From a virus: a stretch of 64,000 nt of DNA. The position numbers were made by a program, and so were the translations under genes. Location of the stretch: the IMG/VR virus record IMGVR_UViG_3300011116_000922, positions 83,411 to 147,410 of that record. One strand, given 5' to 3'. Shown in pieces: positions 7,954 to 59,577 of the stretch (positions are counted from its first letter, which is position 1; each line of letters opens with the position of its first letter). The notes below the pieces were generated by a model. That model was not told the DNA's origin, ran no database searches, and saw only the letters and a program-made list of their open reading frames with translations.

Positions 7954-8721
7954 ATGAAGAGAGGTGTAGTAAATTCTCTTCTCGCGGCTCTAGCACTCGT
8001 CTTGCTGCAAGCCTGTGTTACAGATATCGCTCCCTCTGCGCCTAAGAGCGCACCCCCGCCGAAGAGCGGGGTGACTGAACCAAAGCGAGAAGCCCCCGTG
8101 GAGACTCAACTCTTCATGCGGGGCTTCTCGCCTTTGGACGATGCCGCAGATCCTGCGGTTGGACACTTGGAGGGTGAAGAAGGAAACACAATTGGCAGCG
8201 CGGTTCTTGTTACCCCAACTGAAATACTCACAGCGGGACACTGCGTGGAAGACGGCTCTGCTGTGTGGTTTGTGACACAGGGCGAGTGCCACCGCATTTC
8301 CAAATATACCCTGCATCCACGCTACAAAATAGGCGAAACGGTGTTCTGTGATCTTGCCGTGGCACACCTAGAAAAGCCCTGCGCTGCCCCCACAATGCCT
8401 TTGGTGGGCAAGGAATACCAATACGAGCGTGGACAGCCTTTAAGCGTAATAGGATACGGTGGAGGCATCCGGCGACACAGCAACCCCGGCGTATTTTTTT
8501 ACTTTGGAACCATAATAGAAGATCCAACCGTATTCAAATTCCTGCCCATTCGTGGCACGATTTGGTTTGGTGATTCCGGTGGAGCGGTGGTAGACGCAGA
8601 CGGAAATCTGATTGGCATTGTGGCATCATTCGCAATAGTAAACGGACAACTATACGAAAACTCTGCCACTCGCCTTGACTTGTTCCGGGATTGGATACTG
8701 GAGGAAATAGGATGCAATTAA
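7954..8721 (+). CDS. Trypsin-like serine protease lipoprotein
   Basis: A 255-residue secreted protease. The N-terminus is a lipoprotein signal: MKR, a hydrophobic core, then lipobox LLQAC with Cys21. A Pro/Lys-rich linker follows. The chymotrypsin/trypsin-fold catalytic triad is readable: His96 in LTAGHC, Asp133 in FCDLAVAHL, Ser208 in FGDSGG. It should therefore be an active S1-family-like peptidase anchored to a membrane facing the periplasm or outside. The gene stands alone between terminators, with a tiny membrane ORF overlapping its stop. Possible roles are cleavage of host envelope proteins, superinfection exclusion or lysis. None is shown by the sequence. Confidence 0.88.
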   Translation: MKRGVVNSLLAALALVLLQACVTDIAPSAPKSAPPPKSGVTEPKREAPVETQLFMRGFSPLDDAADPAVGHLEGEEGNTIGSAVLVTPTEILTAGHCVEDGSAVWFVTQGECHRISKYTLHPRYKIGETVFCDLAVAHLEKPCAAPTMPLVGKEYQYERGQPLSVIGYGGGIRRHSNPGVFFYFGTIIEDPTVFKFLPIRGTIWFGDSGGAVVDADGNLIGIVASFAIVNGQLYENSATRLDLFRDWILEEIGCN

Positions 8722-37237: not shown

Positions 37238-37402
37238 ATGCCACGAATTGCAGTGCTTGAATCCGACCTCCGTGACGACACCATTGACTGGAGCGAATTT
37301 GAGAATTCCATCCGTTCCGATGCCGACCCCCGCGAGATCCGCCGACCCGCCGAAGAGGACGAATGGGAAGACGAAGACGACAGTGACGACGACCGCCGCT
37401 AA
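37238..37402 (+). CDS. Small very acidic protein
   Basis: 54 residues between two tRNAs. AAAGGA lies about 10 nt before ATG 37238. The N-terminus is a short strand (MPRIAVLESDL), the C-terminus an Asp/Glu run (EEDEWEDEDDSDDDRR). Its stop overlaps a CTAAATA core placed 8 nt before tRNA-Leu. Could be a DNA-mimic-like inhibitor, purely by composition. Confidence 0.6.
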   Translation: MPRIAVLESDLRDDTIDWSEFENSIRSDADPREIRRPAEEDEWEDEDDSDDDRR

Positions 37403-37405
37403 ATA
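37399..37405 (+). promoter_or_regulatory. Possible late promoter core before tRNA-Leu
   Basis: CTAAATA ends 7 nt before the 5' end of tRNA-Leu, so transcription could begin almost at the mature tRNA end. Confidence 0.35.
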
Positions 37406-37412
37406 AACCCCC

Positions 37413-37485
37413 GGCACTGTAGCCCAATGGCAGAGGCATTCGACTCAAAATCGAAACAGTGTGGGTTCGACTCCCACCAGTGCTA
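37413..37485 (+). tRNA. tRNA-Leu-like (anticodon CAA) with a short variable loop
   Basis: Acceptor GGCACTG/CAGTGCT (37413-37419, 37478-37484), discriminator A; anticodon stem TTCGA/TCGAA with loop CTCAAAA giving CAA (Leu UUG); T-arm GTGGG/CCCAC. It is 73 nt long and lacks the long variable arm normal for bacterial tRNA-Leu. The anticodon assignment is therefore correct by position but unusual in structure. Confidence 0.75.
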
Positions 37486-51342: not shown

Positions 51343-51611
51343 ATTGGAGCGAAGACGCTTACTCCGCAGGTTGGATGACGGGATTGGAAATTACCATTTG
51401 GGGTCTTGTGCAGAAGTGGAAGAAGGGCGACCCCAAGGTTGGTGAACTGGATGCGGCTATGTTCGACTACCTCCACGAAAAGGCAAAGGGATGGTGGGTG
51501 TGGGACGAAGAAGCAGAGCATCCGGTGTTCATTCCCAAGAAGACTTGGATCACCATGTACAAGGAATTGGAAAAGGCTCTAAAGGAGCAAGCCAATGACG
51601 CTTCCGCATGA
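51264..51611 (+). CDS. Hypothetical protein with WSEDAYSAGW motif
   Basis: 115 residues from ATG 51264 (GGGAGG 14 nt upstream). The core VMRDWSEDAYSAGWMTGLE recurs in phage proteins of unknown role, and the C-terminus is helical. The alternative start, Met at 51336, would remove the overlap with the preceding gene. The longer version is kept because its ribosome site is better. The next gene overlaps its stop. Confidence 0.6.
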   Translation: MANTKSKIKKPSESEIAKHTLLRVMRDWSEDAYSAGWMTGLEITIWGLVQKWKKGDPKVGELDAAMFDYLHEKAKGWWVWDEEAEHPVFIPKKTWITMYKELEKALKEQANDASA

Positions 51612-51843
51612 AGAACTACACGCACTGATTGCCACTCGGAATTTCCTGTACGATCTGCTTGATCCGCGGAAGACTCCGCGAGTGCCACGCAGCATCCGGC
51701 TCCGTGCGCGGCAAGTGTGCAAGCACTACCCGTTTGATGACAACATCAGACAGCGGTGGGAAGACAGCATCCGTGAGAGTGGTTGGGGCAGTGAATTGAA
51801 TAGATACACTGATACTGTTGACGGTGGATCGAAACGCGAATAG
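51595..51843 (+). CDS. Small phage protein (LDPRKTPRVPxxIR type)
   Basis: 82 residues. TRNFLYDLLDPRKTPRVPRS, then RARQVCKHYPFD, is a pattern known from small phage proteins. AAGGAGCAAGCCA lies upstream. Its last residues overlap the acceptor piece of the tmRNA gene, so the coding end doubles as RNA gene sequence. Confidence 0.62.
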   Translation: MTLPHEELHALIATRNFLYDLLDPRKTPRVPRSIRLRARQVCKHYPFDDNIRQRWEDSIRESGWGSELNRYTDTVDGGSKRE

Positions 51844-52130
51844 CACGGGGGTTCGAATCCCCCCGACTCCATTAGCCTAACCTGATTTCCACTGCGAGTT
51901 TTCAGGGACGGCGAATCAAGTCCTCTGTGCAGCGGGGCAATCCCCGGAGTGCTAGCCTCCGGGAAACGGGGTCGAACCGGAATCGACTAGCGCGGATTAG
52001 TGAAGCAAGAGGTATCCGGGGCGGGTTACAGAGCCTCGTTAAAAACCCTGTTGCAACCATAATTGCCAACAGAATGGCAATGGCGGCTTGAAGCCGTGGG
52101 GAAAGCCCTCCCGCATCTGAACGGGCAGGA
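51790..52130 (+). ncRNA. ssrA: Circularly permuted (two-piece) tmRNA
   Basis: tmRNA rescues stalled ribosomes and adds a degradation tag. The 3' acceptor part comes first: T-stem GGGGG/CCCCC with TTCGAAT (51847-51863), acceptor strand CGACTCC (51864-51870), discriminator A, then TTA instead of CCA. About 96 nt later, after a hairpin CCCGGAG/CTCCGGG (51943-51963), the 5' part starts with GGGGTCG (51968-51974), which pairs with CGACTCC (one GU). GAATCGAC follows, as in the D-loop region of known tmRNAs. Then GCCTCGTTAAAAA and the tag frame 52053-52091, GCA to TGA, encode ATIIANRMAMAA, close to the usual xALAA ending. ATTAGTG (51996) can pair with CACTGAT (51807). Outer limits are approximate. 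Confidence 0.85.
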
Positions 52131-52131
52131 C

Positions 52132-52160
52132 GGGACGGCAGAAATGCCGTCCCTTCTTTT
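52132..52160 (+). terminator. Terminator after the tmRNA
   Basis: GGGACGGCA/TGCCGTCCC stem (52132-52140, 52145-52153), GAAA loop, TTCTTTT. Confidence 0.9.
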
Positions 52161-52189
52161 ATACATACTTTGTAACCGGAGGAATCGGT

Positions 52190-52534
52190 ATGGCTCTTAC
52201 TAATACATTTTTTCAAATTGGGATGACTGAGCCGTATCAGTACGCGCAGTTGCGTGGGGTCACAACTAATTTCAATACTGCTCCTCCTCCCCATAAAGGG
52301 TTTGCAATCAATACGGGATCTACCACTAGTAATCAGCAGCAAACCGTGACTTTTGATTTGCTGTACCGAAACTCAAATGGTACTACCTTTACCAATCGCT
52401 TGACGATGCCCATCGGATCAACGACTTTTTTCCCCGTACAGATAAGCGGTATCAGCGCAAATCCTATTGATTTTTTAGATCCAACAACCGATCCCGCAGG
52501 ATTGAACGCACACCTTGTATACTACTATTCCTAA
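52190..52534 (+). CDS. Tandem-array protein 1, virion-type beta protein
   Basis: 114 residues. Beta-rich, Thr/Asn/Phe-rich, no charge clusters. GGAGGAATCGGT lies upstream. It shares general layout with the four MD[IL]Y proteins that follow (a central V-x-F-D or L-F-T-Y strand, a Phe-Pro-hydrophobic strand near the end, then G-I-S). Its stop overlaps the next ATG. Probably a decoration, fibre or fibre-tip protein. Base composition is AT-richer than the neighbours. Confidence 0.62.
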   Translation: MALTNTFFQIGMTEPYQYAQLRGVTTNFNTAPPPHKGFAINTGSTTSNQQQTVTFDLLYRNSNGTTFTNRLTMPIGSTTFFPVQISGISANPIDFLDPTTDPAGLNAHLVYYYS

Positions 52535-52794
52535 TGGACATCTACCATAAATTTACTCCGTATACATCGGCGGGTGCTAACACTCCCGGTATCACCTTTC
52601 CTCCTAATATGCGAAGCCTTGTTGTCTCTAATAATGTAGGAACAGTAAATGTTGATCTGTTTACATATGGTCCCACTGGCGGAACTCAAAGCAATAGGAT
52701 ATGTTTATCCACTGGCACTTATGTTCTTCCGTTTCAACTTTGGGGAATATCGTCTGGATTTAATGGATCGCTCAATTATCTCATAGGGTATTAA
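52534..52794 (+). CDS. Tandem-array protein 2 (MDIY family)
   Basis: 86 residues, start overlapping the preceding stop (TAATG). MDIYHKFTPYTSAG, then SLVVSNNVGTVNVDLFTYGP, and YVLPFQLWGISSG near the end. The TYGPTGGTQS and FQLWGISS segments align with the 53095 product. Function unknown, probably virion. Confidence 0.65.
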   Translation: MDIYHKFTPYTSAGANTPGITFPPNMRSLVVSNNVGTVNVDLFTYGPTGGTQSNRICLSTGTYVLPFQLWGISSGFNGSLNYLIGY

Positions 52795-52798
52795 CCAC

Positions 52799-53095
52799 AT
52801 GGATATTTACCGCGCACAACGACAGTTTCGATCCACTGCAAGCGATATTGCAGGAACCGCTGCGCCAACCGATAATTGGGCACACCCAACAAAGGGTGCT
52901 ATGATTTACGGTTTGAGCAACAGTAGTGGTGGTGGAACTGGTGTTTCTCTGCACTTAAAAGGCGCAACAACTGGACTAACATTTTCTTTTCTTGCCATAG
53001 TACCACCCGGAACAATGTTGATTCTTCCGTTTAATGTATTTGGTTCAAGTAGTTCCCAAACTGTGTCTAACCGAGGAATAGTGGGGCTGTATTAA
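52799..53095 (+). CDS. Tandem-array protein 3 (MDIY family)
   Basis: 98 residues. MDIYRAQRQFRSTAS start, IYGLSNSSGGGTGVSLHLKG, then MLILPFNVFGSSS. The same order of elements as its neighbours, with low identity, indicates old tandem duplication. The stop overlaps the next ATG. Function unknown. Confidence 0.65.
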   Translation: MDIYRAQRQFRSTASDIAGTAAPTDNWAHPTKGAMIYGLSNSSGGGTGVSLHLKGATTGLTFSFLAIVPPGTMLILPFNVFGSSSSQTVSNRGIVGLY

Positions 53096-53340
53096 TGGAT
53101 ATCTACAGACGATTTGAAAAGGCTACAACCAATGTGCCGCTGAATACAAAAAATCGCGGAGTTGTTGTATCAAATATGTCAGGCAGCAATGTAATTTATC
53201 AGTTGTTTACTTATGGAGCAACCGGAGCAACATATTCTACTACTATGGTTGCAACCAGTACTAGCACCTATTTCTTCCCTATAAGAACATGGGGAGTGTC
53301 TTTTGATTCTGCTAATATTTCTGCGTTTGGAGCATTCTAA
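53095..53340 (+). CDS. Tandem-array protein 4 (MDIY family)
   Basis: 81 residues. MDIYRRFEKATTNVPL, GVVVSNMSGSNVIYQLFTYG, TSTYFFPIRTWGVSF. Clearly related to protein 2 (LVVSNN, LFTYGPTG, FQLWGISS). Overlaps both neighbours by 1 nt. Function unknown. Confidence 0.65.
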   Translation: MDIYRRFEKATTNVPLNTKNRGVVVSNMSGSNVIYQLFTYGATGATYSTTMVATSTSTYFFPIRTWGVSFDSANISAFGAF

Positions 53341-53615
53341 TGGATTTATATCGAACAGCATCTCCGGTTGTTTCAGCAGGTACTCCGGTTTATTTTAAAC
53401 CGCAAACAAATGGTGGTGTGCTTGGGGCATTATCGGCAGGAAATGGAAATGCGTGGTTTGATGTGGTTCATGTAACAAATTCAAGCGGCGCAACCGCGTG
53501 GTTTCGGTATAGGGCTAGAACGGGATTTGAACCATTGTGTCCTCATTTAATTGTTCCTGTTGTATCCGCAGGAATAAGTTCCGGTGGTGCTTTTAATTTT
53601 TTGTTGTTGAATTAA
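53340..53615 (+). CDS. Tandem-array protein 5 (MDLY variant)
   Basis: 91 residues. MDLYRTASPVVSAG, HVTNSSGATAWFRYRART, then CPHLIVPVVSAGISSGG. Last of the array. Followed by the next early promoter. Function unknown. Confidence 0.62.
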   Translation: MDLYRTASPVVSAGTPVYFKPQTNGGVLGALSAGNGNAWFDVVHVTNSSGATAWFRYRARTGFEPLCPHLIVPVVSAGISSGGAFNFLLLN

Positions 53616-55294: not shown

Positions 55295-55499
55295 AACCAA
55301 CATCAAGACACAGATCGTAAACAACCCCCACCGTGGCGGATCACCGTGTGTAGCCATCTTTGGTGTGGACACACGCGAAGCAGTTGATTCGTATACTGCT
55401 GATGAAATGAACGAACTCATTGACATGATGGAGAAGGCAATTGCCGATCTCCGCGCCGCGCAAATTCTAGACGGGAATCTGCCCACTCTGTTTGACTGA
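55281..55499 (+). CDS. Hypothetical small alpha/beta protein
   Basis: 72 residues from ATG 55281. SPCVAIFGVDTREAVDSYTA and a helix NELIDMMEKAIADLRAAQIL. Ends 10 nt before tRNA-Lys. Function unknown. Confidence 0.62.
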   Translation: MESTKTNIKTQIVNNPHRGGSPCVAIFGVDTREAVDSYTADEMNELIDMMEKAIADLRAAQILDGNLPTLFD

Positions 55500-55509
55500 A
55501 TAAATACTT

Positions 55510-55582
55510 GCCTTCGTAGCGCAATTGGCAGCGCAGTTGACTTTTAATCAATTGGTTGTGGGTTCGACTCCCACCGGGGGCA
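55510..55582 (+). tRNA. tRNA-Lys (anticodon TTT)
   Basis: Acceptor GCCTTCG/CGGGGGC (55510-55516, 55575-55581; two GU pairs), discriminator A; loop CTTTTAA; T-arm GTGGG/CCCAC. Reads AAA/AAG. Confidence 0.92.
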
Positions 55583-59485: not shown

Positions 59486-59577
59486 GCGTAGTCAGCGTCA
59501 GGCTGCTAGGGTCACCTACTTGCAAGGGGTGATCTGATACAGAGCAATAGAGGTGCAAGTCCTTCGCTACGCTTTTT
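59486..59577 (+). ncRNA. Candidate structured RNA closed by GCGTAGT/GCTACGC
   Basis: GCGTAGT (59486-59492) pairs with GCTACGC (59566-59572), enclosing a hairpin GGTCACC/GGTGATC and a T-arm-like AGAGG-TGCAAGT-CCTT. A TTTTT tract follows and tRNA-Ser begins at once. It is tRNA-sized, but no valid anticodon arm is seen. Confidence 0.4.

Follow-up and report, generated by a model that had tools for sequence, protein, structure and literature searches.

The virus DNA analysed here carries a circularly permuted tmRNA gene, which is most probably a functional ssrA gene of a T4-like (Kyanoviridae-related) phage and would serve, late in infection, for trans-translation with the SmpB protein of the host, with a benefit to the phage that includes the recycling of ribosomes. 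The window, that is the whole stretch of 64,000 nucleotides under study, corresponds to bases 83411-147410 of an IMG/VR virus record of 147,410 bases, and the gene was located at 51.8-52.1 kb of it by both ARAGORN and the Rfam model RF04321. The unusual feature of this gene is that its resume codon lies inside a hairpin, a point absent from an earlier note on the same DNA.

Anatomy and covariation of the permuted gene

ARAGORN called positions 51780-52182 (+) a permuted tmRNA with the tag ANRMAMAA. The permuted model RF04321 (tmRNA_permuted) matched 51811-52091 over its complete length (model positions 1-213) with 66.8 bits (E 1.1e-10 for the window), above its curated cut-off of 47 bits. The standard tmRNA model RF00023 gave two weak fragments only (25 and 20 bits, below 47) and these were in swapped order, as expected since the gene is permuted. 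The features of the gene are as follows.

51595-51843 (+): ORF of 82 aa (from the ORF list), its last 11 codons lying within the acceptor piece
51800-51806 (+): ATAGATA (TAGATA), candidate degenerate core of a T4-type late promoter; relatives carry (N)ATAAATA here
51811-51871 (+): acceptor piece (tRNA-like 3' domain and P2 5' strand), encoded first (RF04321, ARAGORN)
51847-51863 (+): T arm, GGGGG-TTCGAAT-CCCCC
51864-51870 (+): acceptor 3' strand CGACTCC, in which T51868 is U70 of G3-U70
51871 (+): discriminator A; CCA is not encoded
51872-51967 (+): intervening segment of 96 nt, presumed to be removed at processing into two pieces
51968-51974 (+): acceptor 5' strand GGGGTCG, with which the coding piece begins
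52012-52016 (+): P2 3' strand GTATC, paired to GATAC in the acceptor piece (51811-51815)
52017-52054 (+): pk1, with stem 1 CGGGGC/GCCTCG and stem 2 GTTACAG/CTGTTGC (6/7 pairs)
52062-52081 (+): tag hairpin (helix m-like) ATTGCCA-ACAGAA-TGGCAAT, with the whole resume codon inside (covariation, MFE of the window hairpin)
52065-52091 (+): tag frame from GCC to TGA, ANRMAMAA (ARAGORN, Rfam alignment, conservation)
52083-52097 (+): helix 5 GCGGC-TTGAA-GCCGT, stop codon in the loop (100% of cells paired)
52098-52126 (+): pk2, GGG/CCC and GCCC/GGGC; compensatory changes at each of the 5 pairs of stem 2
52132-52161 (+): intrinsic terminator (52132-52153: -20.4 kcal/mol, z -6.7)

As the gene is permuted, the acceptor piece is encoded first. 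The earlier note had read the locus from its letters as a phage-borne, permuted, two-piece tmRNA to be checked with the Rfam tmRNA models, and the ARAGORN call and the full-length RF04321 match agree with that reading, the division into two pieces being probable. It had also described an acceptor 3' strand lying about 96 nt ahead of a pairing GGGGTCG, and here the two strands pair at 7/7 positions, G3-U70 (the identity pair of alanyl-tRNA synthetase) included. The pairing is kept in related phages, as the note had asked: among 99 relatives we found 16 variants of the acceptor stem, with compensatory changes at positions 4-7, and all seven pairs were formed in 96. G3-U70 was kept in 98/99 and the discriminator A in 99/99. 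The terminator that the note had placed after the tag frame was recovered, and so was the overlap of the acceptor piece with the end of an ORF, the 82-aa frame running 33 nt into this piece; its product had no match in PHROG or Pfam. The tRNAs of the window phage likewise lack an encoded CCA. The intervening segment is presumably excised, by analogy with other permuted tmRNAs. Its length varies among relatives (commonly 5-6, 71-74 or 95-99 nt), and in some of them, e.g. L022, L024 and L038, it measures merely 5-13 nt, leaving little space for a removable spacer.

The other helices were scored as well, the mRNA-like domain being examined in 88 distinct sequences; all these counts come from kindred phages and do not represent independent events. 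Covariation is also seen in P2, the helix between the two pieces (GGTAT/ATACC, GATAT/ATATC, GACAT/ATGTC, AATGC/GCATT), which had at least four of its five pairs in 94 of the 97 sequences scored. In this scoring the window and two others were mis-extracted; the window is one of the three failures, although its true pair, GATAC/GTATC, is perfect. Over the mRNA-like domains of the 88 relatives, 88.2% of cells were paired (compare with at most 52% in slid controls), and changes on both sides of a pair were seen in 224 cells, against a mean of 64 after shuffling. Pairs changed on both sides occurred in pk1 stem 1 (compensatory at 5/6 pairs), in pk2 stem 2, in the tag hairpin and, at a single pair and in 13 sequences, in helix 5; pk1 stem 2 was recognised by inspection of the alignment. 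The acceptor stem, P2, pk1, helix 5 and pk2 thus all covary, and the pseudoknots that flank the tag of a permuted tmRNA are found on both sides of this one.

Several features were noted around the gene. Directly after the tmRNA, five small ORFs follow in tandem (52190-53615, +), at least three of them mutually related (phmmer E 1e-5 to 3e-13); those tested had no Pfam or PHROG match. At 59490-59576 (+), an element of some 85 nt resembles a tRNA but was recognised by neither ARAGORN nor Rfam; it has an acceptor-like stem GCGTAG/CTACGC and a loop ACTTGCA exactly complementary to a T-loop-like TGCAAGT. Its motif is carried by 24 viral stretches; elements of this type head tRNA clusters in relatives and stand directly upstream of the tmRNA in L207, L209, L212, L214 and L123. 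Further away, at 7954-8721 (+), this T4-like phage encodes a trypsin-like peptidase (PF13365) whose start resembles that of a lipoprotein.

The tag and the helix over its resume codon

Both Rfam models and ARAGORN placed the resume codon at GCC 52065, and the tag is consequently ANRMAMAA, of 8 aa. The earlier note had drawn a short frame from GCA to TGA, encoding ATIIANRMAMAA. The MAMAA end of that tag stands and its start does not: the GCA in question, 12 nt upstream of GCC 52065, belongs to pk1 stem 2, and it is missing from some relatives, L010 and L059 among them, and out of frame in others, such as L032 with a spacing of 13 nt, so that ATIIANRMAMAA was rejected. In all 88 distinct relatives the tag is exactly 8 aa long and ends in AA. 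The suggestion that this tag might be sorted differently from that of the host found no support either, since alphaproteobacterial tags with comparable ends exist; one alphaproteobacterial tmRNA that we found encodes ANDNRAPVAMAA, of the AMAA type, and another tag ends in RMAA. MAMAA as an unusual sorting signal was therefore rejected.

We then consider the structure in which the resume codon is embedded. The longest local hairpin overlaps this codon in 88/88 distinct relatives, and in relatives with AAPMRMAA tags, in which codon 5 is for Arg instead of Ala, the tag hairpin keeps its stem in another register. Under the same scoring, two or three of the three resume-codon bases were paired in 57/59 distinct phage segments, whereas none or one was paired in 26/28 alphaproteobacterial permuted tmRNAs (tags of 10-13 aa), the comparison on the bacterial side covering alphaproteobacteria. 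A helix "m" near the resume codon had been modelled for Caulobacter and E. coli and called weakly supported (PMC1168896); in the present lineage, a helix over the resume codon has strong comparative support. The resume region of E. coli is usually described as single-stranded (PMC4236655), which counts against reading our gene as a functional tmRNA, and the tag hairpin could slow resumption, a further point against that reading. The hairpin may have a regulatory role; with this comparative support, it can be put to the test whether the resume codon usually stays concealed before a ribosome comes.

Distribution of the lineage and a putative late promoter

The phage that carries the gene has a gp32-like protein whose closest matches are those of cyanophages (54% identity) and a portal protein closest to that of Pelagibacter phage Mosig (54% identity), which indicates a T4-like phage related to Kyanoviridae. 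No integrase was found on the 147-kb record, and SmpB was found neither on this record nor on 25 records of related phages, mostly fragments. An exact match to 22 bases of the T arm and acceptor occurred in 43 viral stretches, mostly permuted tmRNAs by ARAGORN, a motif just after the tag occurred in at least 119, and the IMG/VR contigs hold at least 88 distinct relatives. When this last motif, an exact one from the mRNA-like domain, was searched in genomes of 84,980 bacterial and archaeal species, 14 stretches were obtained, none called tmRNA. We also searched with R1, a covariance model for this domain, which gives the window 116 bits: it detected none of the tmRNAs of alphaproteobacteria, Melnitz or pelagiphages, and over 399 Pseudomonadota genomes it gave two matches of about 22 bits, neither called tmRNA by ARAGORN. 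A bacterial source was rejected on these searches, which suggest that the lineage is confined to phages as far as tested. With blastn, the window tmRNA had no match in 50,697 phage records, a set from which records very near the window were possibly excluded, and the tmRNA of a relative gave T-arm matches of at most 33 nt only; close relatives among cultured phages were thus rejected as well. Phage permuted tmRNAs had earlier been reported as scattered curiosities; the present lineage is spread widely among uncultivated T4-like phages and has an architecture of its own.

The T4 late promoter reads TATAAAT, with the core TAAATA (PMC3037559). Of 73 distinct relatives, 41 had TAAATA upstream of the tmRNA, -46 to -48 from its T-stem, and 12 more were within one mismatch of it; the other 188 upstream positions together held 16 occurrences. 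The remaining 20 relatives had at least two mismatches, six of them with a recognised tRNA close upstream. The site of the window, TAGATA, is one mismatch from TAAATA, and Melnitz carries TATAAATA at the same offset from its T-stem. No sigma-70 promoter was found near the gene. This position-locked motif probably acts as a promoter, and the usual T4 spacing would place the transcription start at the P2 strand, which we take to be the mature 5' end. Judged from the motif, the phage tmRNA would be expressed late; the motif predicts the timing of RNA synthesis, in contrast to the early promoter that was proposed in the description of Melnitz (PMC9004378). Elsewhere in the window, late-promoter-like (N)TAAATA cores also stand a few bases before the 5' ends of tRNA-Lys and tRNA-Leu (at 55499-55510 and 37398-37413), TAAATA/ATAAATA being at the same place as the tmRNA core in relatives.

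Proposed function and comparison with known systems

In the reading that we favour, a transcript would be made from the late-type promoter, starting probably at or near the P2 strand, and would be cut by the tRNA-processing enzymes of the host into the acceptor and coding pieces, held together by the acceptor and P2 helices. The host CCA-adding enzyme, alanyl-tRNA synthetase (via G3-U70), SmpB and EF-Tu would then use this RNA on ribosomes stalled on broken mRNA; the tag hairpin would melt, translation would resume at GCC, ANRMAMAA would be added as an SsrA-type degron with a C-terminal AA, and release would take place at the UGA within helix 5. Late in infection, when much mRNA is being degraded, the phage would gain from the recycling of ribosomes and the removal of truncated proteins. 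A more specific scheme, which we put forward tentatively, is that this phage-restricted lineage gates trans-translation: the resume codon would be held in a stem until this is melted by S1, by the ribosome or by some factor of the phage, the stem would largely dictate the tag, and the late promoter would directly set the 5' end of an RNA made late.

The burial of the resume codon in a hairpin would also suit an RNA that never tags anything, its tRNA-like domain binding host SmpB or stalled ribosomes and blocking host trans-translation whatever the tag. Mycobacteriophage DS6A offers a precedent, with a tmRNA reduced to the tRNA-like part and thought to inhibit the host tmRNA (PMC4131195, PMC11915505). 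Such a decoy needs no tag frame, helix 5, pk1 or pk2, and the window lineage keeps the 8-aa frame in 88/88 relatives, its terminal AA, helix 5 with the stop codon, and both pseudoknots, with compensatory changes; we thus consider a decoy unlikely. For Melnitz, Buchholz 2022 proposed that specific proteins are tagged early in infection and degraded to supply amino acids (PMC9004378). The same role is very improbable here: the promoter motif of the relatives is of the late type, and Melnitz has TATAAATA at that offset. Moreover, we know of no selective targeting by tmRNA, which also counts against this role.

That the gene is a captured host ssrA or a fragment left at an integration site, with no current function, seems hardly credible. 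tmRNA genes are indeed common attachment sites of phages (PMC11915505), but the gene is full-length and sits amid a T4-like gene set, its helices covary across numerous diverged phages, and the bacterial genomes searched yielded no tmRNA with a matching mRNA-like domain. That neither integrase nor SmpB was found on the record speaks against an integration scar and in favour of host SmpB being used, and a prophage or att-site origin was rejected since no integrase was found. Altogether, these data favour a functional phage ssrA gene expressed late.

Permuted tmRNAs of phages have been published, namely that of Melnitz together with 53 phage tmRNAs of probable two-piece structure (PMC9004378), and the tmRNA database has entries for 79 tmRNAs from bacteriophages (PMC11915505); our gene therefore belongs to a known kind. 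Its lineage is set apart, by mRNA-like domain and tag, from the tmRNAs with which we compared it. The gene resembles those of Melnitz (MZ577097), Mosig (MT647606) and HTVC008M (NC_020484) in being a permuted tmRNA of a T4-like, Kyanoviridae-related phage. The HTVC008M gene (L053; 145161-145370, 90.6 bits, tag ANFNEYALAA) is unannotated in its GenBank record, and the tmRNAs of Melnitz and HTVC008M lie upstream of a gp33-like late-transcription gene. The tags of the three are longer or otherwise built (ANDNYVPVDYALAA, ANFNEYALAA, GEDNFALAA) than ANRMAMAA, their genes encode the CCA that the window gene lacks, and they score 91-113 bits on RF04321 (compare with 66.8). R1 does not find them, and with its different tag the window gene falls outside the Melnitz/pelagimyophage subgroup.

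The one-piece ssrA genes of mycobacteriophage Bxz1 and Bacillus phage G are phage-borne too but not permuted (PMC4131195). The Caulobacter-type alphaproteobacterial tmRNA has the same permuted order, with pk1, tag, helix 5 and a small pseudoknot after the stop, and some alphaproteobacterial tags end in AMAA or RMAA, like the AMAA end of the window tag. In contrast, alphaproteobacterial tags are of 10-13 aa with a mostly unpaired resume codon, those over the RF04321 cut-off score 115-166 bits, and their mRNA-like domain is not found by R1; with its 8-aa tag and paired resume codon, the phage gene does not belong to this alphaproteobacterial type, which is marked by an AND-type tag of 10-13 aa and a mostly unpaired resume codon.
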